DNA from: a virus
Direction: 5' to 3' (one strand)
Length of the DNA: 41,871 nt
Virus record (IMG/VR): IMGVR_UViG_3300048587_001107
Span: 1-41,871 of that record
Below the pieces are notes generated by a model. It saw only the letters and a list, made by a program, of their open reading frames with translations. It made no database searches and was not told the origin of the DNA. The position numbers and the translations under genes are program-made. Positions 14,614-30,432 of the stretch are shown here, piece after piece; within the stretch, counting starts at the first letter, position 1; each line of letters begins with the position of its first letter.

Positions 14614-14828
14614 CAGACGGTCCCTCCCGGCGAGATGCGGGCGAGCTTGATGCCCAGCCCCTTGGCACGACTGGCCTTCTTGGACTCGAGGTACTTGTCC
14701 GCGGCGATCTGGTCGGGCAGCGAGTGCTGCTCCATCTCGGCGCTATCGCCCTTGGCCCGCTTGGGGCTGGCGGCGTTGTCGCGGATGGTCTGGTCAAGAT
14801 CCTCGGCCACGGAAGTGCTCCGGCACAC
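14613..14828 (-). CDS. small phage head-region protein (copy A)
   Basis: A 71-residue charged protein between terminase and portal genes. Its C-terminal half (EQHSLPDQIAADKYLESKKA) is clearly related to the copy at 27433-27630, which shows that both are real genes. The GTG start at 14828 has a good SD (AGAGGGG). An internal GTG (14810) would match the shorter homologue better. This slot in lambda-like phages holds the head-tail protein gpW, but the sequence is not recognisably gpW. The function is unknown. Confidence 0.7.
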   Translation of the reverse strand: MCRSTSVAEDLDQTIRDNAASPKRAKGDSAEMEQHSLPDQIAADKYLESKKASRAKGLGIKLARISPGGTV

Positions 14829-14832
14829 GGTC

Positions 14833-14935
14833 CCCTCTTTGGTTACCTATGCCGGGCTGGATGACCGACCCCGCGAGATGACTGAGTTGTCTGGAATCTC
14901 TGCAGAAAACCTGCAGAATGTTCCACCGGTAGAAC
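14833..14935. repeat. left copy of a ~100-bp direct repeat (22-bp core plus palindrome)
   Basis: The first 22 bases CCCTCTTTGGTTACCTATGCCG match 21703-21724 with one mismatch. Then, at exactly the same 87-base offset, both copies carry GTTCCAC followed by a near-palindrome (here GTTCCACCGGTAGAAC at 14920-14935). The bases between are similar but diverged. The copy forms the leader of the small head gene and SD overlaps its edge. Candidate recombination or attachment site of the serine recombinase, or a shared regulatory leader. Confidence 0.6.
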
Positions 14936-15026
14936 CTGACGACACGCGGTGACGGTGGAGTGGTGGGTTGTCGATCAGATCGGCAGAATGTCGGGACGGT
15001 TGATTTATCCTGAAGGCGAGCGACCC

Positions 15027-15557
15027 ATGTTGACCCTGCGCTGCACTCAGAGACTGATCAAGCATCTGAAGGTTCAGGTTGCGCCAGCAGTGCCAGAGCC
15101 GAGTAACACTCTGGGTGATTGGCACGCCGGGCTCTTGTCGTACGACGACGCTGACATCGCACTCTGCCTCAATGACCGGACTCGTTATGTGATTCCGATC
15201 TTGCTGCACGACGCGCAGGACGACCACTCGCTCTACATGAACCTGACGTGGCGCATTGCCGAGGCAGTCGAACGTCTGGGGTTCAGCAAATTAATCGCAG
15301 ACCAAATCTTCAAGGAGTACCAGGGCGGCATGCGGATCGCCGCAACCAATAGCCGCAGCCTCCTTGGAACCATCAATGATCTGGCCCGCCTGATGGAGTA
15401 CGAGATCGAGGAGATCTGTGAGGCGGGTAAGCCGATGGACTGGCGCGATATGTGGCGTCACGTTGAAGACAAATTGAACCAGACGCCACTCATGCCCATG
15501 GATGGTGACAGTGGCGCGATGCGACTTAGGTCGCTGCTTCGAGACCAGAGACCGTGA
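15027..15557 (+). CDS. DUF6933 family protein
   Basis: A 176-residue protein starting MLTLRCTQRLIKHLKVQVAP, the diagnostic N-terminus of DUF6933, with the family's DWHAGLLSYDDADIALCLND and VIPILLHDAQDDHSLYMNL core. The function of the family is unknown; members are scattered in mobile elements and chromosomes. The ATG is preceded by a GAAGGCGAG purine stretch. It is antisense to the phage late operon and sits between the zinc protein and the small head gene, where the second phage module has only 33 bases, so it is an insertion (moron-like cargo). Confidence 0.75.
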   Translation: MLTLRCTQRLIKHLKVQVAPAVPEPSNTLGDWHAGLLSYDDADIALCLNDRTRYVIPILLHDAQDDHSLYMNLTWRIAEAVERLGFSKLIADQIFKEYQGGMRIAATNSRSLLGTINDLARLMEYEIEEICEAGKPMDWRDMWRHVEDKLNQTPLMPMDGDSGAMRLRSLLRDQRP

Positions 15558-15572
15558 AACTGCAGCGTCGTC

Positions 15573-15764
15573 TCATGGGGCTTGGCCGACCCTTTGCTCG
15601 TAGGTGCTGATGCGCCGTCCGCAGTGCCGGCATTCGCGCCGGCGCAGCACGCGGTTGCCCCAGGCTCCACGCGTGTAGATCACCTTGAAGTGACCGCACC
15701 CGCAATTGGGGCACTGCAAGCCGCGTCGATCCGAAAGCTGGAGACGATCGGTGGTGACTGGCAT
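15573..15764 (-). CDS. zinc-ribbon phage protein (copy A)
   Basis: A 63-residue protein with two CxxC pairs (CPNCGCGHF and CRHCGRR) 26 residues apart, a zinc ribbon that probably binds nucleic acid. The ATG overlaps the terminase stop as TAATG. Its homologue at 27664-27876 has the same spacing and place after terminase. The C-terminus here is shorter than in copy B, and its lost end may survive beyond the DUF6933 insertion, where the minus strand still reads VLPVEHSAG, similar to VPPVEQSS of copy B. Confidence 0.75.
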   Translation of the reverse strand: MPVTTDRLQLSDRRGLQCPNCGCGHFKVIYTRGAWGNRVLRRRECRHCGRRISTYEQRVGQAP

Positions 15765-17116
15765 TACCGCTTGCTCCGTTGCAGGGCGGACAGTCGCATC
15801 GGTGCCCGTGCTTGTCCCACCTTGGCGTCCGTGCCCGGCAGGACCGCACCTTGGATCGAGGCCGCGACGGCACAGCCGACCAGGCAGTCGAACCAGTGAT
15901 TGTCGGGCGCGTTGGCACGCAGCTTCCACTCGTCCACGACGCGGCCACGCGCCTCGGTGTGCACGCGATATTCGGCGGTGAGATGCTCGGCCAGCAGCTG
16001 ATGCTCGCCGGGCTTGCGCCCGAACAGCGACAGGCTGCCGGGGTCGCCCATGGCCACAGCGAAGCGGGCGTACACGAAACTCTTCCAGTAGTTGGTGTCA
16101 ATCAGGGCGTGGCGCACCTGCCGACGGCCCTGCACGTTGGGGATGCGCCAGTGGTGCCCGACACGCTCGCCTTGCTTGCGCTTGTACTCGCTGAACGGGA
16201 TGCTGGAGGCTCCCACATAGCGGCCGTGGCTGGGCATAACGACGGTGGCGTGGGCACTCTGGCGGCAGAACTGGTAGACGACGTCGGTGGACTGGCCCCA
16301 GTTGGCGTCGATCAAGCACCGCTCGATGTGCATCTCCGCGCCGTCGTCACGTCGCAACCGTTGCGCCAGCAGCGTCTGGGTGAGCTTTTCCAGGCCAGAG
16401 TAGATGGAGCCTTCCAGGCCCGCACCCGGCGCAGCCCTGCTCAGCGTCTTCTGCACGTCGCGCAGGGTGAAGCAACTGCCTGGCGGCCGCTGCTGGTCGG
16501 GATAGGTGCCATAGTCCACAACATACCCCGTAAAGTCATCCTGCCAGGCGACGACGGCGTAGAACAGCAGCTTCGCCTGCACGTCCACGAACATGGTCAG
16601 GCGCGTCGCCCCAATGGGGATGACGTTGCGGGGGTGCCCGTTGGTCTTGGCGGCGATGGCCTCGGCGCTGAGCTGCTCGCCATCACCTTCGTCCTGTGGC
16701 AGCGGCTCGTTCTGATACTCGGCCCAGAACGCCCGTTCGTCCTGCAGACGCAGGTTCATGGCGTGTTGGATGGCGGATAGTTCGTCCTGGTTGTGGCGCT
16801 GCGGCCAGGCGATCACCGCGCCGGCATCCATTTGGTTCCGGTGGCGGCGGTAGAACTCGGTGGCTTCGTGGCCGTCGCCATCGTTGCGGAAGCTGTCAGC
16901 CCGGATCTGGGCGTACTGGTCCCACAGCTTCGTGTTCGTGGGGAAGGCGTACACCAGCTTGGTGCGCTCGCCTTGCCAGGCTGGATGCTTGTCGCGATCG
17001 AGGATCTGATCGGCCAGGTCACCGGGCCGGATCACCGTGCAGGGCATGATGCCGGAGATCTTCTCGCCCGGGCCGGCGAGATTGAGGATTGCGCCGTTGA
17101 GGGTTCCCGCGTGCCG
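15764..17116 (-). pseudogene. large terminase subunit (copy A), ATPase half missing
   Basis: The frame reads as the C-terminal two thirds of a gpA/TerL-like terminase and aligns along its length with copy B (27873-29975): NGAILNLAGPGEKISGIMPC against NGAIYGLAGPGRRTAIIIPC, QGERTKLVYAFPT, AFWAEYQNEPL, and the C-terminal DNHWFDCLVGCAVAAS. About the first 245 residues of the family, with the PRGSGKTT Walker A and GDD Walker B, are absent; homology stops near 17116 where an unrelated plus-strand frame begins. The RNase H-type nuclease part remains (FVDVQAKLLFYAVVAW, LIDANWG). An ATG at 17047 could express a nuclease-only protein but packaging ATPase activity is lost. Confidence 0.8.
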
Positions 17117-17130
17117 GCTCAGGGGCCGAG

Positions 17131-18965
17131 CGGGTCTTTCCCATCCTGAGCAACGCGTCAGATCAGGCTGTTCACGATCTGCTGGTCGCCGTCATTGATC
17201 GGGTAGCAGTCGAGTCGCACCTCAACACGACCTTGCGGAAGATGGGGAACGGCTTGAAATGCTCCCTGCGTTTCTTTCCTGATGGGCGTGTTCTCCGGCC
17301 GACGGGCATGCTTGTCCGGGCGGGTTACAGCGGGGATCGGCTCGGCAATGTCATGGGCATCCTTGCCGATCTCGGCATGATCGATCACGAATCGAATGCC
17401 CTCTCGACGCGTGGCCGGCAGCTGCTCGACATGCTCGGGGGGACGGTCGCCTCCTTGCCAGTCAGGACGTCCAGTCAATCGATGGTGTCCTCAAGGTGCA
17501 CAGCATCGGCGTCGTTAACCGTGTGCAACTGGCCGTGACACTCAACGGGAAGCGTCATGTCTCGGCGGAGCACTGGGTCGACCACGAGTTCATGTTGAAT
17601 GCGACCAACCGCCAACGGCAGATGGCTCAGGCCATTGGCGACCATGTTGCACCTGGCCAATGGAGTTTCCAGGGCTGGACCGAAGTGCTCCGCCTCCTGG
17701 GGGACCACCTCACGCACACGCCGGCGGGGTCCGCCGGTCACGAGCAGAAGTCGCGCGACGAGAAGGTACGGCCGAATTCCGTGGCGGCGTCCGAGTTCTT
17801 CACCGAGGATTACCGTCTACCTGGACATCGGCACGAGGCTACCCGCCTGGATGAAGCCGCTCGTGTCCTCGGACTGCGCGGGCTGCTCCTGGACTATTTC
17901 GGCATCTCGAACGATGACCAGGCCGGGCCAACTATTGCAGAGGACGATGCTGACGACGACACCGTTGACAAGCCTGAAGCAGCGAAGACCAAGGAACGGG
18001 CCAAACCTCTCGTAAAGGCCAAGCGCGATCTCACCGACGCGGAACGACGTCGAGGGCAGCGTATTGCCAAGCAGATCGTCGATGTCTGCACGTCAAAAAA
18101 GTTTGCCGAAGATCGCCCGGCCACGATGTTGACCTCCGATCTCGCCATCGTCGCCGTACTGCTTGTTTCCGGGCATGCAGAGGGATGGCTTACCAGCGAC
18201 GATTTCCTGGACCTCACGTACCGCGTGTGGTCATTCCTGTTCTTCGATGACGGGACGGACGAGAACGGGCGGGAACGCAGCGTGGGGGCATTCACGCGTC
18301 GTCATGACACATCTCCATCGCCACGCCAGTTCGAGGAATCGATCCGGTCTGTCAGGCTCGCTGCGGCTTTGGCCACCTGGTGTTTCTGTTGTCCCCAAGG
18401 CATCGCACATGCTGAGGCGACTAGGTTTGAGGTGGCCACGAGGCTTGCCGTCGCGCGACTTCCGTGGCTGTGGTACTTGGAAGCACGAGATCAAGTCGAG
18501 CAGGAGTTGTTCGAGATCGCGCGCCGGACGGAGTGGCTCGGACCGGATGTTGCGAGCCAGTGGGGCCAGGTGGTCTCGCGCTGGGACAGTTTGTTCGCCG
18601 AGGGCCGAGCCATTGCGATACTGGAGCACACGCTCCTGCAGATGGAACTGTCAGATCTCCGAGATCGCATCACGGACAATGAGGTGCCAGCGGGAACGCT
18701 ACTCTGGCAGGGGCCGAAACTTGGCTTCTGCTCGCTGGCTCAGACGGCTTGGCGTCAGTCGCAACTTGCCCATTCCGTTCCGGTGCTGACACTTCGATCG
18801 CAGAATCGCGACACCAAGCTGTCCCCGCCATACCTGCTCCCGTTCCGCAGCCTGTTGCGTCTAGCAGCCGAAAGCGCGCCGACGCAGTTCACAAACTCCC
18901 ACATTCAAACGCTCGAGGTCTTTGCAGCAAGGATTGAATCGATGTGGGCGTCACGTCGGCGATGA
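17131..18965 (+). pseudogene. unknown large protein gene, 5'-truncated and frameshifted
   Basis: Two plus-strand frames together look like one protein. The first (about 17131-17441) reads RVFPILSNASDQAVHDLLVA, then LRPTGMLVRAGYSGDRLGNV and ALSTRGRQLLDMLGG, winged-helix-like. At a run of six G (17437-17442) a -1 shift leads into DGRLLASQDVQSIDGVLKVH and the long frame to 18965 (a GTG at 17496 would give 489 residues). The remainder has a charged linker (about 17930-18060) and Trp-rich helical C-terminus. No family recognised. The 5' end runs into terminase sequence with no start codon, so the gene is cut there. It could be a remnant of a defence or island gene; that is inference. Confidence 0.6.
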
Positions 18966-19364
18966 AGAGCTTTCAGATGCCAATGTCCCTCGCCAAACAC
19001 GGCGCTGCGTCCGCCAGTCCCACATGCGCGTGACCGACCGTAAATCGCGTTCGGTGATTGGATCGTTGCCTTCATCGATTGCTGGTAGGTGCAGCAGTTC
19101 CTCCTGGATGTCCGGTGCCAGATGCAGCAGGTTCATGATCTGCGTCATCCGCGGCTGGGTGACGTGAGCGAGGCGTGCGAGGTCAGACTGGTTCGCCACG
19201 ACGCCATCATGCAGCAACTGATCGAATCGGATCGCCAGGGCCATCAGCTTGGACACCCGCGGAATGCGGCCAGCGGGCGCTACCGGCTCCGGTGGCGGGC
19301 CAGGTCGTGCGATTTTCCGTCGTGCCTTGACCTCAAAGTGGATCTGCCGGGTGATCGTGGTCAT
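18951..19364 (-). CDS. HTH (KorB/ParB-type) protein of recombinase operon
   Basis: A 137-residue protein starting MTTITRQIHFEVKARRKIAR, with a helix-turn-helix-like core NQSDLARLAHVTQPRMTQIM and NLLHLAPDIQEELLHLP, as in KorB/ParB HTH segments. I recognise this as the protein that regularly accompanies recombinase/DUF2924 operons. Its ATG overlaps the recombinase stop as ATGA-type coupling (19361-19364). It probably binds DNA, either to control the operon or to assist recombination. Its 3' end overlaps the convergent unknown gene by 15 bases. Confidence 0.75.
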   Translation of the reverse strand: MTTITRQIHFEVKARRKIARPGPPPEPVAPAGRIPRVSKLMALAIRFDQLLHDGVVANQSDLARLAHVTQPRMTQIMNLLHLAPDIQEELLHLPAIDEGNDPITERDLRSVTRMWDWRTQRRVWRGTLASESSSSPT

Positions 19365-20941
19365 GCTGCCTCCTCACCTTTTCCAGTCGCCAGGCCCCGG
19401 ATTCCCGAGGGGCGGAACGTCACGGACACGGTGCCGGCTTCGCCGTCGAACTGAACGGTTGAAATGAGCAGCCGAAGCAGGCGAGCCTGCTCGCGGGGGA
19501 TCAGGCTTTGCCAGAGCCGGTCGAAATCGGCGAACACTGCTCTGGCTTCCTCGTCCGTAATGACTTGCTGTTCGAGCCCCATGATCTGCGTTTTGAGCGC
19601 GAGCAGGCGCTGATCACCATCCCGAAGGCGATCTTGGAGTTCCGCAGCCCGGCGAGTCGTTTCGGGTGCAGTCGTGCCGCCCTTGGCGATCTGTTGAAGC
19701 TCCTGGTCGTGGCGACGCCGCTCGGCTTTCAATGCGTCGTACTCGCGCCGTGTGGCCACCAGGTCGCCCTCAACGCCCGCACGGGCGTCCTTGAGCACTT
19801 GGGCGAGCAACGCCTCGTCCTTGGCCAGGGCACGCACCTCGGCCACCACGACGCGTTCGATCTCGCCGGCGGGCAGCGAGCCGTTGGGGCAGGTGTCGTG
19901 GCCGTTCTTGATCGCGCCGGTGCAGCGGTAGTAGCGGTTGACGTTTCGACCTTGGCTGCTGGTGAAGGTGTGCGTCATGGCCTTGTCACAACTCTTGCAG
20001 CGGAGAATGCCGCGCAGCAGCGCCCCGTACTTGTTGCGCACCTCGGCACCCCCGGTCCTGCCGTTGAACTTGAGCTGGTGCTGGACCTTGTCGTATAGGT
20101 CCTGGTCGATGATCGCCTCGTGCTCGCCCGGGTAGAGCTCGTCCTTGAAGCGGGTCTTGCCAGTGTAGGTCGGGTTCGTCAGCAACTGGTGCAGCGTCGA
20201 CTTGTCGAAAGGCCTGCCGCCAAGCTCGCAACCCTTCTTGGTCACACGCCGTTTGTTGACCCAGCCGCGACGCGCCAGTGCCTTGACCACCGGCAGCAGT
20301 GAGGCCTCGTGCAGGTACATCTGGAACATTTCCCGGACGCGGGCCGCCTCCTTGGCGTTCACGACGAGCTTGGGGCTCGGGCCCGAGCGATCCACGTCGT
20401 AGCCCAGGAGCGGCGCTCCGCCGGTCCATTTGCCCTTGCGAGCCTGGGCAGCCAGCTTGTCGCGGATGCGCTCGCCGATGATCTCACGCTCGAACTGGGC
20501 GAACGACAGCAGAATGTTGAGCGTAAGCCGGCCCATCGAGTGGGTCGTGTTGAAGTGCTGCGTCACCGACACGAACGACACGTGGTGCCGCTCGAAGGTC
20601 TCCATGATCTTGGCGAAGTCCATGAGCGAGCGGCTCAGGCGATCAACCTTGTAGACCACCACGCAGTCGATCTTGCCGGCGTCGATGTCGCGCAGCAGGC
20701 GGTCCAGGGCTGGGCGTTCCATGGACCCGCCGGAGTAGCCGCCGTCGTCGTATCGGTCGGGCAGCATCGTCCAGCCCTCGGCCCGTTGGCTCGCGATGTA
20801 GGCCTCGGCAGCCTCGCGCTGGGCGTCCAGCGAGTTGAACTCCTGATCCAGACCTTCCTCGCTGCTCTTGCGGGTGTAGATAGCGCAGCGGGTAACCGGC
20901 TTGGTGGCCTTGACCACGCCATTGGCTCGACTCTTCCTCAT
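19361..20941 (-). CDS. large serine recombinase (site-specific integrase type)
   Basis: A 526-residue large serine recombinase. The N-terminal resolvase domain has YTRKSSEEG (catalytic Ser about residue 26), VVVYKVDRLSRSLMDF and FAQFEREIIGERIRDKL. The recombinase domain follows (~residues 185-290), then a zinc ribbon with CKSC and paired Cys (RYYRCTG, DTCPNG) and a C-terminal coiled coil. The ATG at 20941 overlaps the DUF2924 stop as ATGA; the longer frame lies inside that gene. It catalyses cut-and-rejoin between attachment sites; the 22-bp direct repeats at 14833 and 21703 are candidate sites. All key residues appear intact. Confidence 0.93.
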   Translation of the reverse strand: MRKSRANGVVKATKPVTRCAIYTRKSSEEGLDQEFNSLDAQREAAEAYIASQRAEGWTMLPDRYDDGGYSGGSMERPALDRLLRDIDAGKIDCVVVYKVDRLSRSLMDFAKIMETFERHHVSFVSVTQHFNTTHSMGRLTLNILLSFAQFEREIIGERIRDKLAAQARKGKWTGGAPLLGYDVDRSGPSPKLVVNAKEAARVREMFQMYLHEASLLPVVKALARRGWVNKRRVTKKGCELGGRPFDKSTLHQLLTNPTYTGKTRFKDELYPGEHEAIIDQDLYDKVQHQLKFNGRTGGAEVRNKYGALLRGILRCKSCDKAMTHTFTSSQGRNVNRYYRCTGAIKNGHDTCPNGSLPAGEIERVVVAEVRALAKDEALLAQVLKDARAGVEGDLVATRREYDALKAERRRHDQELQQIAKGGTTAPETTRRAAELQDRLRDGDQRLLALKTQIMGLEQQVITDEEARAVFADFDRLWQSLIPREQARLLRLLISTVQFDGEAGTVSVTFRPSGIRGLATGKGEEAA

Positions 20942-21447
20942 CGTTGCACTCCAAGGCGGAAGAAGCGGTAGCCGTTCATATGGCTGCCCGTGATCTTCTT
21001 GGTCAGGGCTGTCAGCGTGCGGAACCGCTCGCCGTCGCACTCGAAACCCTTGCCGTCATCGAGCACGACGGCCCGGATGGTCCGCCCCTTGTACTTGCGA
21101 ACGATCGCGGTGCCTGGCGGCGGGATGCGCGGGTCGTTCAGGCGATCGAGCCCGGAGGGCGCTGGCCGGGTGACGGTGACACTGGGACCGACCTGCGGCG
21201 GACACAGCAGCGTCTTGGGTGCCATGACCCGCACCTCAGCATCGTTGGCCAGTTCAGCCGCTCGCTTCAGGGCGCGCTCGGACAGCCCGCCCTCGGCGAT
21301 GGCCTGGATTCGCCAGGCGATCTTGCGGACGAGGTAGGCCTTGTGCCTGGTGCGGCAGGCCTGGCCGTGCAGCTCGGCGTAGAGGGCGGCCAGGTCGCCG
21401 GTGGACATGTGGTCAAGCCTGGCCAGTTCGGTGGCGACTTCCTGCAT
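20938..21447 (-). CDS. DUF2924 family protein
   Basis: A 169-residue basic protein. The N-terminal half is helical (TELARLDHMSTGDLAALYAE, HKAYLVRKIAWRIQAIAEGG), and the C-terminal half holds GTAIVRKYKGRTIRAVVLDD and LTALTKKITGSHMNGYRFF, the DUF2924 signature. The family is almost always encoded directly upstream of large serine recombinases and is presumed to help them, for example as a directionality or DNA-binding factor; this is inference from association. Translationally coupled to the recombinase. Confidence 0.9.
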   Translation of the reverse strand: MQEVATELARLDHMSTGDLAALYAELHGQACRTRHKAYLVRKIAWRIQAIAEGGLSERALKRAAELANDAEVRVMAPKTLLCPPQVGPSVTVTRPAPSGLDRLNDPRIPPPGTAIVRKYKGRTIRAVVLDDGKGFECDGERFRTLTALTKKITGSHMNGYRFFRLGVQR

Positions 21448-21702: not shown

Positions 21703-21806
21703 CCCTCTCTGGTTACCTATGCCGTCCGGTGTGGGTGCGCCCGCAGGAACTGAGACTTTGTGTGAAAGATTGAAGCATTGCGCATTGATGTTCCACGGTG
21801 GGACAA
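21703..21806. repeat. right copy of the ~100-bp direct repeat
   Basis: CCCTCTCTGGTTACCTATGCCG (21703-21724) matches 14833-14854 with one mismatch. GTTCCACGGTGGGAC follows at 21790, again 87 bases from the repeat start. It lies directly upstream of the recombinase operon and downstream of the divergent GTPase promoter, the usual place of an integrase attachment site. It could alternatively be a shared promoter/operator leader. Confidence 0.6.
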
Positions 21807-21813
21807 ATTCATC

Positions 21814-21843
21814 TTGACATGCACGGGGTCTGCACACTAAGAT
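21814..21843 (+). promoter_or_regulatory. sigma70-type promoter of the GTPase gene
   Basis: TTGACA at 21814-21819, an 18-base spacer and TAAGAT at 21838-21843, 33 bases before the GTPase ATG. The spacer contains TGCA-N7-TGCA, a possible operator. The region is distinctly AT-richer than the flanks. Confidence 0.65.
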
Positions 21844-21875
21844 TGCCACACCATGGAACATCGAAAGGGCGCGAA

Positions 21876-24173
21876 ATGGACAACGCACGAATCGCTCGTC
21901 TCGGGCAAAATACAGACCGGAAGGGCTACTTTGTCGAGTTCCGTCACCCCAAGCGGCTCGACGGCAGAGGAAAATTCGGGAAGAAGATACGGCGGGGAGT
22001 AGGCGTCGACCGCGGGGGTGCGGAAGCAGTCCTGCACGATCTACAGGCGATCCTCAACGATGAGTACTGGTGGTCGTTCGAACGCAAGACCGAGGCTGAG
22101 GCGAAGTTTCCCGAACGACTGGCCGTAACCATCTTCTACGAGGGTATGGAGCCTACGCCACCCGACTACATCGGGACCCGCGACAAAATAATCCGACTGC
22201 CAGACCGGCACGGGCCGAAACCCCACGCCTATATTCTGCCCCTTGGCCCAGCAGGTGCGGGCAAGAGCACCGTGGATCGCCATCTGCTGGGGACGGACCC
22301 CGAGAGACACCGCTTCCCAGCAACGGCGACCGTGAAGACAACGACGTATGAGACGGAAATCATCATTGAGGATGGCGAGTACGAGGCCGTCGCGACCTTT
22401 CTGCCGCGAGATCAGGTGCGCGACCTCATAGAGGATTGTGTCCTCGCCGCCGCTCGCGCCCGGATTGAATCCTCGGACGCGCACGAACCCGTCAGGAAAC
22501 TGCTCGAGCACACGGAGGAGCGTTTTCGCCTGCGATACATCTTGGGTGACTTTCCCGCGAAGAAGGACGGAGAGCCGGCCGGCGAGTTTGACGATCCAGT
22601 AAGCGATGTTGAGGACGATGGGTCGGTCCTTGATGAAGAACGAAAGCGGTGGGCCGACCAGTTGGCAGGGCACATCTCGGCCATTGATTCCCTCGCGACC
22701 GAAACGTGGTCGAAGATGCCGAAGGTGCGCGAAGCGTCCTTGGAGGCGGAGCGAGAACAGTGGGACAATGCGATGGAGGCATTCGAAGATGCTCTGCGCA
22801 ACGATGATCGCCTCCTCGATATCGTGGATGGGATTGAACACGACATCGAGAAGCGGTTTGCTCCGTACCTCGAGCAGATGCAATGTACGCGAGATCGCTG
22901 GCCTGTCCTGTGGCACTTCAAGCACATCGGTCGGGATGAGTTTATCAGCGCCTTAAAAACCTTCACTAGTGTGAGCTCTGTGCGATGGGGAAAGCTGCTC
23001 ACGCCAGTCGTTTCTGGTCTGCGAATACGGGGCCCGTTCAGGCCTGAGTGGTATGACGGGAAAAGCTTGCCCCGTTGGGTAATCCTCGACACTGAAGGGC
23101 TGGGCCATGACCCAGCAACTGCTACTGCCGTGCCGACATCTATCACCAGTAAATATGAAATGGTGGATGCGATTCTACTTGTGGACAGCGCCAAGCAGGC
23201 GATGACGCACGCGGCGACATCGGCGGCACTTCGGAACATCGCAGCCAGTGGCCACGCGGCCAAGTTGATGATCTGCTTCACCCACTTCGACCTCATGGAC
23301 GCCAACAATCTGCGCACCGTCGACGCCCGCAAGGATCGTCTGCTGACCTCCGTTGACAACGTGATCGCGAACATCGGCAAGTCTCCCGCAGGGCGCACAG
23401 CAGAATTGGCCTTGCGTCGCGCACTCCCAAAGCGAGTCTTCTTCTTAGGGCATCTTGATAAGCGGTTGGACTGCAAGAGCGACGCATCCAAGACGGGTGT
23501 AGGACGGCTCGCCATCTCCGAGTTCCGACGCCTTTCACAGACGCTTGATGAGCAACTTCAGCCCAAGCCGAAGCCGGTGATCCATCCTGTCTACCATGGC
23601 AAGCACCTCGGCTTCGCCGTTCAGGGAGCTGCTCAGGACTTCCATCAGCGATGGTTGGCGTTGCTCGGATTCGAATCACATTCCATCTATCACAAGGCAA
23701 AGTGGCAGACTGTAAAGGCGCTGACCCGAAGACTTGCCGAGCGATGGGCTGATCAGTTCGGGGGCCTCATGCCCGTCGCAGACTTGATCGAGTGTCTCCA
23801 GGAGCGCCTTCAGGCGTTCCTTAGTCACCCCATTGGCTGGGTCGGCGACGACAAGAAGAATGTGCCACGGGAAGAGGTCACTGAGGAGGCTAAAGAAAAG
23901 GCTATTGAGTCGGTGGTGACGACCGTCCATGCACGCCTGCATGCTATTGCACCGCAACGCCTGTTGGCGGCGAGACTCTCCGAGTGGGCCGCTGCCTACG
24001 GTCACTCAGGAGCAGGATCAACGGTTGTACGCGCACGTGACATGCGATCTATCTACGAGCACGCTGTACCAATTCCATCTGACACGGCGAGCGAGGATGC
24101 CATGCGGTTCCTCGACGATGTTGCTGAACTTGTTGAGAAGGTGATCGATGAAAACGGTGGACTCATGGTCTAG
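21876..24173 (+). CDS. large dynamin/GBP-like GTPase with integrase-arm-like N-terminus
   Basis: A 765-residue protein from the ATG reading MDNARIARLGQNTDRKG (AAAGGG upstream). Residues ~15-65 (GYFVEFRHPKRLDG, KKIRRGVGV, AEAVLHDLQAILND) look like the arm-type DNA-binding domain of tyrosine integrases. The GTPase motifs are G1 GPAGAGKST (124-132), a threonine-rich G2 (ATVKTTTYET, ~151-160), G3 DTEGLGHD (405-412) and G4 THFD (469-472). The large G1-G3 gap holds a long charged helical insertion (~200-345), as in dynamin-like or GBP/IRG-type large GTPases. A helical C-terminal stalk follows. No membrane helix. It is plus-strand, monocistronic, between recombinase operon and tRNA scar: likely cargo, perhaps defence. 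The function is unknown. Confidence 0.8.
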   Translation: MDNARIARLGQNTDRKGYFVEFRHPKRLDGRGKFGKKIRRGVGVDRGGAEAVLHDLQAILNDEYWWSFERKTEAEAKFPERLAVTIFYEGMEPTPPDYIGTRDKIIRLPDRHGPKPHAYILPLGPAGAGKSTVDRHLLGTDPERHRFPATATVKTTTYETEIIIEDGEYEAVATFLPRDQVRDLIEDCVLAAARARIESSDAHEPVRKLLEHTEERFRLRYILGDFPAKKDGEPAGEFDDPVSDVEDDGSVLDEERKRWADQLAGHISAIDSLATETWSKMPKVREASLEAEREQWDNAMEAFEDALRNDDRLLDIVDGIEHDIEKRFAPYLEQMQCTRDRWPVLWHFKHIGRDEFISALKTFTSVSSVRWGKLLTPVVSGLRIRGPFRPEWYDGKSLPRWVILDTEGLGHDPATATAVPTSITSKYEMVDAILLVDSAKQAMTHAATSAALRNIAASGHAAKLMICFTHFDLMDANNLRTVDARKDRLLTSVDNVIANIGKSPAGRTAELALRRALPKRVFFLGHLDKRLDCKSDASKTGVGRLAISEFRRLSQTLDEQLQPKPKPVIHPVYHGKHLGFAVQGAAQDFHQRWLALLGFESHSIYHKAKWQTVKALTRRLAERWADQFGGLMPVADLIECLQERLQAFLSHPIGWVGDDKKNVPREEVTEEAKEKAIESVVTTVHARLHAIAPQRLLAARLSEWAAAYGHSGAGSTVVRARDMRSIYEHAVPIPSDTASEDAMRFLDDVAELVEKVIDENGGLMV

Positions 24174-24513: not shown

Positions 24514-24558
24514 CTGCGTGAACCGTGGGGCCGGCCACGTTCGTAGCCGGCCAATAAG

Positions 24559-24602
24559 TAGCGGGGGCAGGATTCGAACCTGCGACCTCCGGGTTATGAG
24601 CC
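24559..24602 (-). tRNA. 3' half of initiator-type tRNA-Met(CAT), attachment-site remnant
   Basis: The minus strand reads GGCTCATAACCCGGAGGTCG followed by CAGGTTCGAATCCTGCCCCCGC: anticodon loop with CAT, the 3' strand of the anticodon stem, variable loop, T arm (GCAGG-TTCGAAT-CCTGC) and the 3' acceptor strand. The sequence is that of fMet-type tRNA. The 5' half is not there; bases before GGCTCAT do not pair with the stem. A tRNA cut at the anticodon loop is the standard scar left by tyrosine-integrase insertion. The native terminator follows. Confidence 0.8.
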
Positions 24603-24933: not shown

Positions 24934-25383
24934 CTACTCGCTTGCTGCCATCGCGCGCGATGGTTCATTTTCGACTTTGCTTCTGAGTCGAACATGCAAT
25001 GCGTCAAGGATCTTTACCGCACGTTCAACCGTAATGCCAAAATACTCGTTTCGTTCATCGCGTGACACCTGCGACTCGTGAACGCCCAGCTTCTTCGCCA
25101 GATCGCGCTGCGACATTCCTTGGGCGATTCGAAGTGAAATGAGCAAATGGCCGAAGCCACGTAAATTGTCGAGCTCCTCAAACTCACCTCGCTTGAGGCG
25201 TTCGTAGCTTTCCACTTCCTCCTGCAGTTGCAGGTGAAAGGATTCCATTGGATCGATGACCCGCTTGATCTCTGCCTCGGAAAGCCCCGCCTCTTTCAGG
25301 CGTGCCCGATGTTGCGTGAGCCTGTTGCGTTCATCAGAGAGGCGCGCTACTGCCTCCTTGTATTCTGCTTCATTGCGAATCAC
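24934..25383 (-). CDS. XRE-family HTH protein, probable antitoxin of DUF6932 pair
   Basis: A 149-residue protein. The N-terminal half is a coiled-coil-like helix bundle (EAVARLSDERNRLTQHRARL, MESFHLQLQEEVESYERL). The C-terminal half is an XRE helix-turn-helix: LLISLRIAQGMSQRDLAKKL and GVHESQVSRDERNEYFGITV. This combination is typical of HTH proteins encoded next to DUF6932. Its start overlaps the DUF6932 stop as ATGA. It probably neutralises the neighbour and represses the shared promoter at the palindrome 25993-26010. The gene is lower in GC than the phage genes. Confidence 0.75.
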   Translation of the reverse strand: MIRNEAEYKEAVARLSDERNRLTQHRARLKEAGLSEAEIKRVIDPMESFHLQLQEEVESYERLKRGEFEELDNLRGFGHLLISLRIAQGMSQRDLAKKLGVHESQVSRDERNEYFGITVERAVKILDALHVRLRSKVENEPSRAMAASE

Positions 25384-25955
25384 TTCACACCTCCATAACG
25401 AAGCTTCACGATTCCTCTTGGTCTGCCGTCACGACGAGATTGGCGAAACGCAGAAGGAAACTCCAGTTCATGACCGTGCTTATCAACGATTCCACAACCG
25501 ATGCCCAAGCCCGGCACGTGCGGGTATAGCTCGACGCGATATTTATGCCACATGGGCAACTGCTTCTTCGGGTAACCCTGGTACGGGGTTCGCGAGGTCG
25601 GGTCCCACGTCCAGACCTTGTAGGGATCAAGAAGATTCAGGCTGCGCGAGAGATCGCCGCTGCTCAAAGGTGCCAGGTCGCAGACGAAGTACCCGTCAAT
25701 GTCGTTTGGATGATCCTTGTCTTCGGCGAACGACCCATCCACGAAGACCTCCTTCACCCCCACCTGCCAGAGCTGACGCGTCAAGATCTCCAGGTTATTC
25801 ACCAGCCGTTCTCGCCAGGGACCGTCCCAACAGGGACATTCCTTGGGCTCGCCCGGACCCAAGACCAACACGGACTGCCGGAGTTCCTCGAACGAGACCT
25901 CGTAGTCGCCGGGTGGCAACAGGCCGTCACGAGCAAACGCGGGAATCTTATGCAT
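25380..25955 (-). CDS. DUF6932 nucleotidyltransferase-like protein, probable toxin
   Basis: A 191-residue protein opening with the DUF6932 signature IPAFARDGLLPPGDYEVSFE. The nucleotidyltransferase-fold motif is GSFAEDKDHPNDIDGYF: a GS followed by D-x-D with DIDG, as in MNT/MenT-type enzymes. C-terminal PMWHKYRVELYPHVPGLG is shared by the family. The pairing with an XRE protein suggests a toxin-antitoxin unit in which this protein would nucleotidylate a tRNA or protein; that activity is inferred. Start ATG at 25955 lies ~20 bases after the predicted transcription start. Confidence 0.72.
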   Translation of the reverse strand: MHKIPAFARDGLLPPGDYEVSFEELRQSVLVLGPGEPKECPCWDGPWRERLVNNLEILTRQLWQVGVKEVFVDGSFAEDKDHPNDIDGYFVCDLAPLSSGDLSRSLNLLDPYKVWTWDPTSRTPYQGYPKKQLPMWHKYRVELYPHVPGLGIGCGIVDKHGHELEFPSAFRQSRRDGRPRGIVKLRYGGVK

Positions 25956-26088: not shown

Positions 26089-26571
26089 ATGGCATGTTTT
26101 CAGATTCTTTCGCTCGATGGTGGAGGCGTTCGCGGCCTCTACTCCGCTGCCGTGCTGGCGAAACTGGAGGAAAAGTACGGCGTCCGGATCGTGGATCATT
26201 TCGACCTCATCACTGGAACTTCCACGGGGGGCATTATCGCCATTGGGCTTGGTTTGGGGATGCTCCCGCGTGAGATCGTCCGGTTCTACGTCGAATCCGG
26301 CAGCCGCATATTTCGCAACCGCTTCGGGTGGCGCAACTGGGCACATTGGCTCTACCGGAAGTACGCGGCCGATCCCCTGCGGACAGCGTTGAACCACAAC
26401 GGTGCCTTTGGGGAGCGCCGACTCGGCGACAGTAAGTCGAGGCTGGTGATTCCGGCGTTCAATCTCGCCCACAACAAAGTCCGCGTCTTCAAGACGCCCC
26501 ACCATGAACGCCTCAGGACTGATTGGCAGATTCCCAACCCTCCGGCGCGAAGACCGCCATGTTGGGCGTGA
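26089..26571 (+). pseudogene. CapV-like patatin phospholipase, 3'-truncated
   Basis: The start MACFQILSLDGGGVRGLYSA has the oxyanion-hole DGGGVRG (10-16), then GTSTG (43-47) with nucleophile Ser45, and the CBASS-effector-like GLGLGMLPREIVRFYVE and KTPHHERLRTDW. Authentic sequence stops near 26530, where the frame runs into portal antisense and ends at 26571. About half of the domain, including the catalytic DGG/A aspartate, is missing, so it should be inactive. SD GGGAG is 8 bases upstream. No CD-NTase, Cap2 or Cap3 gene is present. In CBASS such patatins degrade membrane lipids on cyclic nucleotide binding. Confidence 0.78.
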
Positions 26572-27430
26572 ACTCCATCTCGGTCATGGGATCCACGTCC
26601 GCCGCGGAGCCGCTGGCCGGCACGGTGGTCTTCATGAGGATGGCGATATTGGCCGCACTTTCAGCGGCGGCGATCACCGCCAGCGTGTAGCGGCGCAGCT
26701 GGGCGAACAGGGGCAGTGCCGGCAGGATGTCGGGTAAGCCGCGGTATTGGCCGGGTCGGTCGGCCCGGAACCAGTGAAGCATTGCCCGGGCAGGGATGCG
26801 GTCGTAGCCCGTCAAGATCCCGCTGCCGGCCGAGCCGGGGTGCTGCTTGAGCAGGTGGTACTCGACGGCGTTGCCGTAGCGATCGAACACGATGCCATCG
26901 ATCTGCTGATGACTCCCCGCGCCAGTTCCGGGGCTTCCGGGGGCGGTGGCCGGTGTGGTGACCTGGTCGGCCTCGATGATCCGTACATCAAGTTTCACAT
27001 CGGTGGGCAGTTCGGGATTGCTGAACAGCATGGCGAAGGTTTCGCCATCCTGGGCCCGGGCCATGCGCATGGTGCGGAGCTTGGCCGCGAGGTCCACATC
27101 ATCCGCCCACTGCGCGAAGGCACGTTCGATCGCGCGGTTGGCAGCCGCATCCCCGGTCAGCATCTGCAGACGCGGGCCCGTTCCGACCACGTCGTTGGCC
27201 AGGGTGAGCACAATGCCGCGGGCGTAGGAGTTGTTGGCCACTTCGTAGCGGGCCCGACTGCGCAGGATGGCCCGCACGGATGGATTGGCCGCGGCGTTGG
27301 GGTCCATGCGGTCCGCATTGGCCCAGTGGCGGCGGTTGTCCGGCGTGGTCTGCGCGGCATCGAACTTCGCCCGCACCCGCAGGGTGGCAGTCGATCGAAG
27401 CTGCGCGAACTTTCGGAAGGGCCACCACAT
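26513..27430 (-). pseudogene. phage portal protein (copy B), C-terminally truncated
   Basis: 305 residues from the ATG reading MWWPFRKFAQLRSTATLRV. It is homologous to portal A over its whole N-terminal part: RARYEVANNSYARGIVLTLA, GTGPRLQMLTG, MLHWFRADRPGQYRGLPDIL and ALPLFAQLRRYTLAVIAAAE. After APEGWE (near 26535) the portal sequence stops and the frame ends within patatin antisense; about 190 residues, including the wing/crown part, are missing. A portal lacking this part should not assemble. The copies are clearly diverged, not a recent duplication. Confidence 0.82.
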
Positions 27431-27432
27431 GG

Positions 27433-27630
27433 TCAGACGGTTCCCGGAGGCACGATCTTGACGCGTGAGAACGCCAGAGCCGGCTTGGTACGAGCAGACT
27501 TGGACGCCAGGTACTTGTCCGCCTCGATCTGGTCCTTGAGCGAATGCTGCGTCACCGTCTGTCCGTCGATGCTGACGGACTGGGGCGACGCGGCGTTCTG
27601 CTGGAGGGGGATCTCGCCGGACTCTGCCAT
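27433..27630 (-). CDS. small phage head-region protein (copy B)
   Basis: A 65-residue protein starting MAESGEIPLQQNAASPQSVS. The C-terminal half (QHSLKDQIEADKYLASKSA) corresponds to copy A at 14613. It sits between the zinc-ribbon gene and portal, three bases before the portal ATG. Function unknown; the conservation of position in both modules suggests a structural or assembly role at the head. Confidence 0.65.
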   Translation of the reverse strand: MAESGEIPLQQNAASPQSVSIDGQTVTQHSLKDQIEADKYLASKSARTKPALAFSRVKIVPPGTV

Positions 27631-27663
27631 GCCGCCGAATATCGTCGGGGCGCGCGCAGAATG

Positions 27664-27876
27664 TCAGAGATTGGGCAGCTTCAAGCTCGATTGTTCCACG
27701 GGTGGAACTGGCGGGTCGCTGAGTGCTCCGACCATCTCGGTGGTGGTGAACATGTGACCGCAGTGCCGGCACTCGCGCCGGCGCCGCGTGAATTTGCCGA
27801 CGCGGCGCGTGTAGTAGACGGGCACGTGACCGCAGCCGCAGCGAGGACAACTGACGCCTGGGTTGGACCGGCTCAT
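27664..27876 (-). CDS. zinc-ribbon phage protein (copy B)
   Basis: A 70-residue protein with CPRCGCGH and CRHCGHMF, two CxxC pairs forming a zinc ribbon, separated by a basic YTRRVGKFTRRRRE. The ATG overlaps the terminase stop as ATGA. The C-terminus PPVPPVEQSSLKLPNL is encoded over the palindrome GTTCCAC-GG-GTGGAAC (27693-27708), whose relatives occur at 14920 and 21790. Probably binds nucleic acid or assists packaging. Confidence 0.75.
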   Translation of the reverse strand: MSRSNPGVSCPRCGCGHVPVYYTRRVGKFTRRRRECRHCGHMFTTTEMVGALSDPPVPPVEQSSLKLPNL

Positions 27877-29975
27877 TGAACTCTCCTGCGCAGATCGTCC
27901 TGGGTGTACCGCTTGCGTGCGGGCTGACTGTCGAGCGGTTCCACACCGAGCCGGATACCGCACATCGACGCGGCCACCGCACAGCCCACCAGGCAGTCGA
28001 ACCAGTGGTTGTCGGGTTTGGCTGGCAGCAGCGACCACTCCTGCACCGTGCGGCCATGGCCCGTGGTCAGGACGCAGGTCTCACTGCCGGCGAGGTGCTC
28101 GGCAAAGAGGCGGTGATCACTGGCGCCCGGCCGGCCGAACATTGTCAGCGAGCCCGGATCACCGGCGGCGGTAGCCAACCGCGCATGCACGAAGCTCTTC
28201 CAATGGTTGGTGTCGATCAGCACATGTCGGAACTCGCGCGTCCGGGAAACGTTGGGCACGTACCAGTGATGACCGTGGATCTCACCGGCCCGGCGGCGGT
28301 AGCTGCTCATAGGGCGGTTGGCGGCGCGCAGGCCCACACCTTTGCTGGGCATGAGCGTGTTGCCGACCGCCAGCTTGTGGCACGCGTTGGCCACGCCGCC
28401 GGGCAGGTAGCCGGAGTCGATCAGGATCCGATCCAGCTTGGCCGAACCTTCGCCGCGTGGCCAATCGCGATGGAGCAGTTCCTGGACCAACTGCTCGAGA
28501 CCGGCTTGAACGGACGCTTCAACGCCCATGCCCGGGAACGTCTGGGCCAGTGTGCCCGGCGCGTCGCGCAGGGTAAAACTCCGCCGCGGCTGGCGCGGGA
28601 AGGTGCCGTAGTCAATGACATAGCCGGTGAACGTCGGCTCCCAGGCACAGACACAGTAGAAGAGCATGCGGTCGTGCACATCGATGAAGGCGGTGAGCAC
28701 GGTGGCGCTCACCGGGGCCTGTCGTCGGGGTCGGCCGTTGGTTCTTTCAGCGATCTGCTGCGGGGTCAGGCGGGCATCTTCGGCCTGCCCGGTGAGCGGC
28801 TGGTTCTGGTACTCGGCCCAGAACGCGGCTTCGTCGCGCAGCTTGAGGTTCATCGCGTGCTGCACGGCGGAGACTTCGTCGGGATCGTGCCGCGCCGGCC
28901 AGGCAACGCGCACACCTTCGTCCATGGCCGCCTGGTGCTCGCGATAGAACTCAGTGGCCTCGTGGCCCTGGTCGCCGCGGCGCAGGCTGTCGGCGCGGAT
29001 GCTGGCGTACTGCGACCAGAGCTTCTCGCACACACTGCCGGGGGTCGGGAAGGCGTAGACGAGCTTGGTGCGTTCGCCTTGCCAGAGGGGATTTTTGTCG
29101 CGGTCCAGGAGCTGGTCGGCCACGTCGCCAGCTCGGATAACGGTGCAGGGAATGATGATGGCCGTACGCCGCCCCGGACCGGCCAGGCCGTAGATGGCGC
29201 CGTTGATGATGCTCAGTCGCTCGGCCACCTGGGTCAGCGAGCGAGCCGACTGGTCGGTCTGCAGATCGTCTCCGACCACCAGCGTCGGTCGGATCGAGGT
29301 GCCGTCGGGCCTGATGTGCACGGCGCCGCGAATGTGACCGGTGATGCCGGCCACGCGCACCAGGGCGCCGCTGCAGCGTGAGCCCGGAATCGTCGGCAGC
29401 ACGATCTGGTCGCTGGTCCAGCCGATGTGCGTGAGTCGGCCATAGTAGCGCTGGCCAAGGCAGCGGCGCGATTCGCCGTCCAGGCAGCGGATCGGAAAGA
29501 CCGCCTCGGGGTAGTCGGCCAGGAGCAACTCATTGCCCATCAGGTGCTGCTTGAGATTGTCGAGCAGCGCCAGGGCGGACTCGGCCGTGCTGGCGATCAG
29601 GAACACGAACGGGTGCCGTCCCGTGAGCAGGGCCCACAGCACGGCGATCAGGCAGAGCGTGGTCTTGCCCGACCCGCGCGGCATGGCCACGGCCAGTGTC
29701 TCATGGTCGATCACCACCTGCTCGATCTTGCGGATGACCAGCAGGTGATCGTCGGACCAGGGCAGCGTGAAGACCCTGGGGAAGTAGCAGTCGCAGAAGG
29801 CACGGAACGACTCGTCGGCCAGGGCCCGGCGCGCGGGATCGCCCACGGGCGGGATGGGCCCGATGTCCTGGCCGGCCAGAACCTGCGCCGCCGAGCGTGC
29901 CTTAGCCCTGGCTTTGGTGCGGCGGTAAGCCTGTGTGGCCTTGCTTGCGGAGGATGTCTGCGGCGAGCCGGGCAT
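27873..29975 (-). CDS. phage terminase large subunit (copy B, intact)
   Basis: A 700-residue packaging motor from the ATG reading MPGSPQTSSASKATQAYRR, with GGAAG 5 bases upstream; an earlier start 10 codons upstream is possible. The ATPase has PRGSGKTT (99-106) and VVGDDLQTD Walker B (~233-241); FLIAST is a typical motif III area. The nuclease part includes FIDVHDRMLFYCVCAWEP and LIDSGYLPGG. It cuts concatemers and pumps DNA through the portal. The gene overlaps the small terminase by 74 bases. It is full length, unlike copy A. Confidence 0.92.
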   Translation of the reverse strand: MPGSPQTSSASKATQAYRRTKARAKARSAAQVLAGQDIGPIPPVGDPARRALADESFRAFCDCYFPRVFTLPWSDDHLLVIRKIEQVVIDHETLAVAMPRGSGKTTLCLIAVLWALLTGRHPFVFLIASTAESALALLDNLKQHLMGNELLLADYPEAVFPIRCLDGESRRCLGQRYYGRLTHIGWTSDQIVLPTIPGSRCSGALVRVAGITGHIRGAVHIRPDGTSIRPTLVVGDDLQTDQSARSLTQVAERLSIINGAIYGLAGPGRRTAIIIPCTVIRAGDVADQLLDRDKNPLWQGERTKLVYAFPTPGSVCEKLWSQYASIRADSLRRGDQGHEATEFYREHQAAMDEGVRVAWPARHDPDEVSAVQHAMNLKLRDEAAFWAEYQNQPLTGQAEDARLTPQQIAERTNGRPRRQAPVSATVLTAFIDVHDRMLFYCVCAWEPTFTGYVIDYGTFPRQPRRSFTLRDAPGTLAQTFPGMGVEASVQAGLEQLVQELLHRDWPRGEGSAKLDRILIDSGYLPGGVANACHKLAVGNTLMPSKGVGLRAANRPMSSYRRRAGEIHGHHWYVPNVSRTREFRHVLIDTNHWKSFVHARLATAAGDPGSLTMFGRPGASDHRLFAEHLAGSETCVLTTGHGRTVQEWSLLPAKPDNHWFDCLVGCAVAASMCGIRLGVEPLDSQPARKRYTQDDLRRRVQ

Positions 29976-30432
29976 GTTCTTCCACGGGGTAGTGATCAGA
30001 CGCAAGGTTCAGCGGGAGCAGATACGCCGCGATCAGGTCGAGTTGGCGTCGCAAGGCTGTGGCGTCTTCCACGCCTTCACTTTCCAGGTCATCGCGTTTG
30101 GGCGCGTAGAGGGACAGTAGGCGGTTCAGTTCGCGCTGGGCCTGCAGAGCCGTGCGGGTGTCCTGGCCGGCGATGCTCTTGGCATAGAGGTCATCCAGGC
30201 GCATGACGGCCCGGCCGATCTGCTCGTCGCGTGTGAAGTCCGCCGCGACGGTGATGCGGTTGCGTGCTTCGCGGACGATCTGCTGGGCCTGGTCCGGCGC
30301 CACGTTCTGCTGCAGGCAGTACGTCTGGGCCGCTTCGGGCGACATGCCGTTGATCAGCAGCAGGACCACGCGATCGCGCAGGGTGTTGAGGGAGCCGGGG
30401 GAGCCGGGAATTCCGGGGGCGGGAGAGGTCAT
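29902..30432 (-). CDS. phage small terminase-like protein
   Basis: About 176 residues from the ATG reading MTSPAPGIPGSPGSLNT; a TTG 13 codons upstream is less likely. The N-terminal helix-turn-helix-like region (LRDRVVLLLINGMSPEAAQ, NVAPDQAQQIVREARNRITV) and helical oligomerisation region (AQRELNRLLSLYAPKRDD) fit a small terminase, and it lies directly upstream of TerL. It would recognise the packaging site. The name rests on position and fold-like pattern. Confidence 0.65.
   Translation of the reverse strand: MTSPAPGIPGSPGSLNTLRDRVVLLLINGMSPEAAQTYCLQQNVAPDQAQQIVREARNRITVAADFTRDEQIGRAVMRLDDLYAKSIAGQDTRTALQAQRELNRLLSLYAPKRDDLESEGVEDATALRRQLDLIAAYLLPLNLASDHYPVEEHARLAADILRKQGHTGLPPHQSQG

Follow-up and report, generated by a model that had tools for sequence, protein, structure and literature searches.

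A divergent dynamin-like GTPase family from bacterial defence neighbourhoods with an integrase-arm-like N-terminus and a putative operator at its own promoter

We analysed a stretch of 41,871 nucleotides taken from an IMG/VR virus record (the window, whose position numbers are used throughout) and found in it the gene for a 765-residue protein, P0001, which belongs to a family that is widespread in bacteria and previously unnamed. The computed features of this family were its fold class, an N-terminus resembling an integrase arm domain, a conserved operator-like site restricted to its own gene and a neighbourhood of defence genes. The explanation that we favour, with moderate confidence in it as a whole, is that P0001 is a stand-alone cytosolic dynamin GTPase with an arm-derived, sequence-specific DNA-binding domain, which would repress its own gene and allow a burst of synthesis upon infection.

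The P0001 frame could be extended upstream as far as a GTG codon at 21798. We preferred the ATG at 21876 (Table 1) because the GTG lies inside the operator and promoter region and the starts of the relatives align with the ATG. The gene is placed between an operon that we regard as context outside the system and a 3' fragment of a Met-type tRNA, with phage packaging modules on both sides. The recombinase operon and the tRNA scar had both been proposed in an earlier reading of the sequence (the first-pass annotation), and both were recovered; the tRNA fragment is probably the scar of an attachment site, and no whole tRNA was found in the window. The two packaging modules are related but distinct (terminases 55% and portals 53% identical), and the terminase of the first module is without its N-terminal ATPase half. 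A truncated gene for a patatin-like phospholipase, a family that serves as CBASS effectors, runs into the second portal gene and is adjoined by a DUF6932 gene.

Table 1. Positions of P0001, its predicted domains and motifs, the putative operator and neighbouring features in the window
Feature	Position	Strand	Basis or detail
Dynamin-like GTPase gene P0001, 765 aa	21876..24173	+	ATG start, open frame of 765 codons
N-terminal integrase-arm-like domain, residues 1-65	21876..22070	+	AlphaFold; DUF6538 and integrase profile matches
G1/Walker A GPAGAGKST, residues 124-132	22245..22271	+	sequence, alignment
G2, T-rich ATATVKTTT, residues 149-157	22320..22346	+	sequence, alignment
Helical insert in G domain between G2 and G3, residues 178-334	22407..22877	+	AlphaFold model
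G3 DTEGLGHD, residues 405-412	23088..23111	+	sequence, alignment
G4 THFD, residues 469-472	23280..23291	+	sequence, alignment
C-terminal helical region, residues 541-760	23496..24155	+	AlphaFold model
Left arm of putative operator: half-site GATGTTCC (21787-21794) and degenerate half-site GGTGGGAC (21797-21804)	21787..21806	.	family-wide motif
Sigma-70-like promoter between both arms: TTGACA (21814-21819), 18 nt, TAAGAT (21838-21843)	21814..21843	+	consensus match
Right arm of putative operator: degenerate half-site GCCACACC (21845-21852) and GGAACATC (21855-21862)	21843..21862	.	repeat search
Flanking operon (context)	18951..21447	-	three genes, next three rows
137-aa protein	18951-19364	-	flanking operon
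Large serine recombinase	19361-21040	-	flanking operon
DUF2924 protein	20938-21447	-	flanking operon
46-nt 3' fragment, Met-type tRNA	24557-24602	-	read from sequence
First packaging module	13120-17047	-	
Second packaging module	26513-30005	-	
DUF6932 gene	25380-25955	-	
Truncated patatin-like phospholipase	26089-26571	+	Pfam Patatin, E 3e-19

The first-pass annotation had described the product as a dynamin-like GTPase with G1, a threonine-rich G2, G3 and G4. All four motifs were present, at columns invariant or nearly invariant in an alignment of 87 relatives (~35% identical to P0001), and thus they are not chance matches. An AlphaFold2 model built from the 87-row alignment had a pLDDT of 90.6, with the G domain beginning at residue 118. 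Comparison of the model with the PDB using Foldseek gave SynDLP (E 1e-6), a Campylobacter DLP (9.5e-6) and IniA (1.1e-5) as top matches; BDLP and mitofusins ranked after SynDLP, Campylobacter DLP1/DLP2 and IniA, and all 13 matches at E<=1e-3 belonged to the dynamin superfamily or to its EHD, Mx or mitofusin-like branches. Global TM values to dynamins were low, given domain motion and inserts. No match above cut-off was obtained for P0001 with Pfam, NCBIfam (nothing at all) or PADLOC; the Pfam Dynamin_N model scored 14.3 bits, short of its cut-off (27 bits), and P0001 is therefore a divergent relative outside that Pfam family. The earlier description had gone further than the three databases, and the Foldseek matches supported its fold assignment. 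Judged on the predicted structure, P0001 is almost certainly a dynamin-type GTPase from a divergent branch of the superfamily. Two minor database matches were rejected: a PHROG 'terminase' match (E 6e-4, 56 residues) covered the P-loop only and reflects a shared Walker A, and a PADLOC 'Effector' match (E 0.005) spanned 77 residues within the helical insert and reflects helical similarity.

P0001 might be an ordinary membrane-remodelling dynamin of the DynA kind that delays lysis or mends membranes, with the N-terminus and operator setting the expression level only. Its nearest solved folds are indeed membrane dynamins, and DynA of B. subtilis, a membrane fusion dynamin, protects populations from phage via delayed lysis (PMC8844932). 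However, no hydrophobic membrane segment was detected (maximum 19-residue Kyte-Doolittle mean 1.15, and 0.96 in P0001), the body of the protein is acidic (net charge -25, compared with ~+4 for the N-terminal domain) and the gene stands alone, unlike the majority of bacterial DLP genes, which one study describes as operon pairs (PMC6104087). We consider a purely membrane-remodelling role rather unlikely; peripheral membrane binding by the GTPase is possible.

Relatives of P0001 were found by tblastn in 11 plasmid records (31-36% identity; Caballeronia, Bradyrhizobium, Rhizobium, Agrobacterium, Azospirillum and Rhodococcus) and in none of the phage records, and a profile-based scan found at least 177 in GTDB species genomes, whose sequences were taken as the best 80 of the 177, together with 16 viral contigs. 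Their record titles place them in Pseudomonadota, Acidobacteria, Planctomycetota, Bacillota, Actinomycetota, cyanobacteria, Chloroflexi, Nitrospirales, Verrucomicrobia and further groups; MAGs are numerous among them, and the isolates include Burkholderia ambifaria, Calothrix, Sporosarcina, Actinoplanes and Bacillus. Many copies are chromosomal, and others lie on conjugative plasmids and in prophages. Complete relatives are ~740-780 residues long, nearly all with the same N-terminus. In a maximum-likelihood phylogeny built from the GTPase portion the phyla were intermixed, in line with horizontal transfer, and P0001 occupied a long branch. A Rhodococcus plasmid clade, whose members start ~100 residues later and have no such N-terminus, was nested inside the N-terminus-bearing members, and thus the domain was lost in this clade. 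One Vicinamibacterales genome (G009) carries two copies, the second being L152, and an actinomycete copy (G399) is split over two frames, L384 and L387, and is possibly a decaying gene.

The first ~65 residues form a conserved separate domain according to the family alignment and the model, with predicted strands at residues 8-11, 18-28 and 34-41 followed by a helix at 46-61. The likeness of this segment to the arm-type domain of tyrosine integrases, put forward in the first-pass annotation, held at the level of sequence profiles. Of 60 members, 23 gave a match to DUF6538 (best E 9.5e-5) and 2 to the family next in rank, although the similarity to integrase N-termini was under the Pfam cut-off for most members, and DUF6538 proteins from genomes also carrying the GTPase family include a Phage_integrase domain. 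When a family N-terminal HMM was run against the six-frame ORFs of the loci, the first two non-family matches were the N-terminus of a tyrosine integrase (L078) and that of a DUF6538 protein. With hhalign the domain aligned to the L078 integrase at p 1.8e-5 and to a DUF6538 set at p 1.1e-4, compared with a best p of 0.0046 in a calibration on 280 unrelated proteins, where the first and fourth in rank are integrases by sequence. P4-type integrase N-termini aligned poorly (p 0.19), and an arm-domain set drawn from the PF14657 and PF00589 families contained too few arm-bearing integrases. In the structure search the small isolated domain had no match with E<0.1 in the PDB or BFVD (Foldseek). A search of 20 whole genomes for the N-terminus gave mostly chance matches below the family itself, and the relationship with integrases is therefore remote. 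P0001 has no Phage_integrase catalytic domain in a Pfam search and is thus no integrase. Taken together, derivation of the N-terminus from a tyrosine-integrase arm-type domain is supported by the profile comparisons. Integrase arm domains bind short repeated DNA sites. The N-terminus of P0001, predicted as a basic strand-strand-strand-helix fold in keeping with the earlier DNA-binding reading, very probably binds DNA as well.

Upstream of the family genes, a perfect inverted repeat of at least 9 nt was present in 64% of 87 regions of 120 nt, compared with 2% of shuffles. The repeat unit was GGAACAAC, with variants GGWACAWC, and nearly all N-terminus-bearing members had copies of it or of a variant 10-11 bp apart that bracketed their own promoter, usually as two inverted copies near -92/-81 from the start codon, the promoter, and two direct copies near -28/-17. 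At least two GAACAAC copies were found in 69 of 95 upstream regions versus 1 of 9293 control windows. Where the exact unit was missing, most members had a coherent variant instead: GGAACATC in the window and in L004 and L089, GGTACAAC in L051, L060 and L061, and GGAACAAT in L045. The arrangement of the window, at 21787-21862, follows the family layout; its inner half-sites are degenerate, and the right arm is 85% complementary to the left over 20 nt. The sigma-70 promoter that had been assigned to the gene earlier was close to chance as a bare consensus match (2 found versus 1.0 expected), but it sits exactly between the conserved inverted repeats. An RNA hairpin formed by the repeats was ruled out, as most loci have one of the arms placed upstream of the -35 element.

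The tandem pattern occurred 18 times in 20 whole genomes, each time within ~100 nt upstream of the GTPase gene and in 14 of the 20 genomes, compared with a single occurrence of a reversed control pattern in the same genomes. No partner gene was conserved, the largest neighbour cluster comprising 13 of ~105 loci. With GGWACAWC allowed, a site was found in 81 of 91 N-terminus-bearing members versus 0 of 4 members lacking the domain (Fisher p 3e-4, one clade), and the latter, from Rhodococcus, had no repeat copies; four N-terminus-bearing members (L006, L059, L074 and L103) had no clear site. Loss of the N-terminus is confined to that clade, and this co-loss of domain and operator therefore counts as one event, since no further members without the N-terminus were found among 395 Actinomycetes. 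A separate, widespread regulator might instead bind the repeats, leaving dimerisation or the binding of RNA or protein to the N-terminus, and indeed the structure search linked the isolated domain to no solved arm domain at a significant level. Such a regulator is improbable in our view, as the motif is restricted to the GTPase gene across many phyla, is accompanied by no conserved partner gene and is gone where the N-terminus is lost. For the same reasons self-binding is the best explanation: the protein is likely to bind its own putative operator, and it is somewhat likely that the arms act mainly as repressor sites. The repeats are probably best read as autoregulation by the N-terminal domain.

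Arrays of GGAACAAC were also seen elsewhere. In three kinds of viral contig (L264; L267/L271/L211/L223/L275; L225) they adjoin tyrosine integrase genes, at ~1430-1600 in L264, ~1700-1850 in L267, ~1180-1460 in L271 and ~1780-1850 in L225, where the array lies beside a tRNA 3' end. These are probably integrase arm-type sites of the GTPase operator sequence. Dense GGAACAAC/GTTGTTCC arrays in L216 (~1190-1400) and L234 (~870-960), close to phage replication genes (primase or helicase-like), are possible replication-origin iterons. An alternative function for the N-terminal arm would be to recognise the integrase arm-type sites or iterons of invaders, with the self sites as decoy or set-point and binding as the trigger of GTP-driven assembly. 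This would fit the integrase ancestry of the arm domain itself and the presence of an integrase within 500 nt of 7 of 79 motif loci compared with 1 of 56 reversed-pattern loci. However, a single integrase type accounts for five of these seven loci, low-complexity coding DNA gives rise to half-site arrays as well (at least three copies of the reversed pattern in 14 of 56 loci), and the tandem pair was found solely at the GTPase gene in the 20 host genomes. A general viral enrichment of the arrays was only partly convincing, the reversed pattern forming them too in such DNA. We find recognition of invader sites by the arm doubtful, and equally so its extension to an immune dynamin that spots mobile elements by these sites, with foreign copies titrating the operator and so triggering synthesis and assembly. 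The only strongly supported DNA target of the GTPase is its own promoter, and thus the DNA-binding arm appears to be an autoregulatory module in the first place, with sensing as a further possibility.

To describe the neighbourhood, ~7 genes at each of 20 GTPase loci, and as many in each of 20 stretches drawn at random from the same genomes, were scanned with PADLOC. Among the matches listed, those next to the GTPase were SspB, SspC, SspE, BrxA, BrxB, BrxC, DrmD, type IV restriction and type I/III methylases, whereas those in the control stretches were nothing beyond resemblances to housekeeping proteins, for example UvrD-type helicases and kinases. The neighbouring systems were thus BREX, Ssp, DISARM and restriction, and the annotated neighbours on plasmids included restriction, BREX, Abi, and patatin plus nucleotidyltransferase genes. 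The GTPase gene lies reversed inside the structural operon, like cargo, in prophages of the Rhodobacter type and in several viral contigs. In L053, L056, L067, L071 and L079 the GTPase gene is directly followed by one for a 490-residue protein with a SEC-C motif, which overlaps the GTPase stop codon or adjoins it and whose product is a possible partner in this Burkholderiales/Thiobacillus-type subgroup. The first-pass annotation had placed the gene in mobile cargo and thought a defence role plausible, and the survey agreed, with homologues on plasmids, in prophages and beside defence systems and not mainly in housekeeping contexts. The copies carried by conjugative plasmids or embedded in the structural operons of prophages would also suit a maintenance or regulatory factor of mobile elements, acting in plasmid or prophage stability or blocking rival integrases, but many copies are chromosomal and have defence systems as neighbours, unlike the control stretches of the same genomes, and we give this possibility little weight. 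Judged by the association with defence genes, an anti-phage or anti-plasmid function is likely, and we hold a defence role of the family with reasonable confidence.

In the mechanism that we propose, two half-sites separated by one turn of the helix would be occupied by two N-terminal domains of a dimer or oligomer; these half-sites are of the GGAACAAC family in general and GGAACATC in the window. Occupation of the half-site pairs on each side of the promoter would bridge the arms over ~64 bp and repress transcription. Infection, engagement of an invader or a changed GTP or assembly state would then release the protein from the promoter, and the resulting burst of GTPase synthesis would act on the invading phage or plasmid, through either DynA-like membrane protection or GTP-driven assembly on DNA. 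Here binding, repression, looping, the trigger and the final antiviral act are what we infer.

Dynamins are usually regarded as membrane machines, and one PADLOC defence system, Eleos, is dynamin-based. If our reading is true, a defence-island dynamin found across phyla with a DNA-binding domain and a self operator links GTPase assembly to DNA recognition and gives a directly testable switch, and the defined site together with the family profile offers a way to find, and then to test, hundreds of unannotated defence candidates. In the literature searched, largely without subscription papers and without preprints, we found no description of such an operator or of a dynamin whose domains include one for sequence-specific DNA binding, and no assay of any family member. 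The genomic neighbourhood is like that of PADLOC systems, although P0001 has no convincing PADLOC family match. With SynDLP, Campylobacter DLP1/DLP2, IniA and BDLP the family shares the G motifs and the large GTPase/helical fold (Foldseek E 1e-6 to 1e-3), but at ~10% identity and low global TM; unlike them, it has a helical insert of ~155 residues between G2 and G3, a DNA-binding-like N-terminus and a stand-alone gene, and no hydrophobic membrane segment. DynA is likewise an anti-phage protein of the dynamin superfamily (PMC8844932), but no DNA-binding arm has been described for it, whereas the present family occurs in defence islands with its own putative operator. E. coli CrfC, a chromosome-partition factor that binds the beta clamp (PMC6374313), is also a dynamin-like GTPase that acts on complexes bound to DNA and has no typical membrane motif, and by analogy it may serve as a precedent for a dynamin-like protein on DNA-bound machinery; its DNA contact is through the clamp, with no integrase-arm domain or self operator described. 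The arm domains of tyrosine integrases (DUF6538 and related) share with the family the strand-strand-strand-helix order, profile similarity and, near some integrases, GGAACAAC arrays, whereas the family has no recombinase catalytic domain, is fused to a dynamin GTPase and has a longer hairpin with an invariant HP. Dynamin-superfamily GTPases in defence islands are known; what would be new, as far as the literature searched shows, is the DNA-binding and autoregulatory layer.
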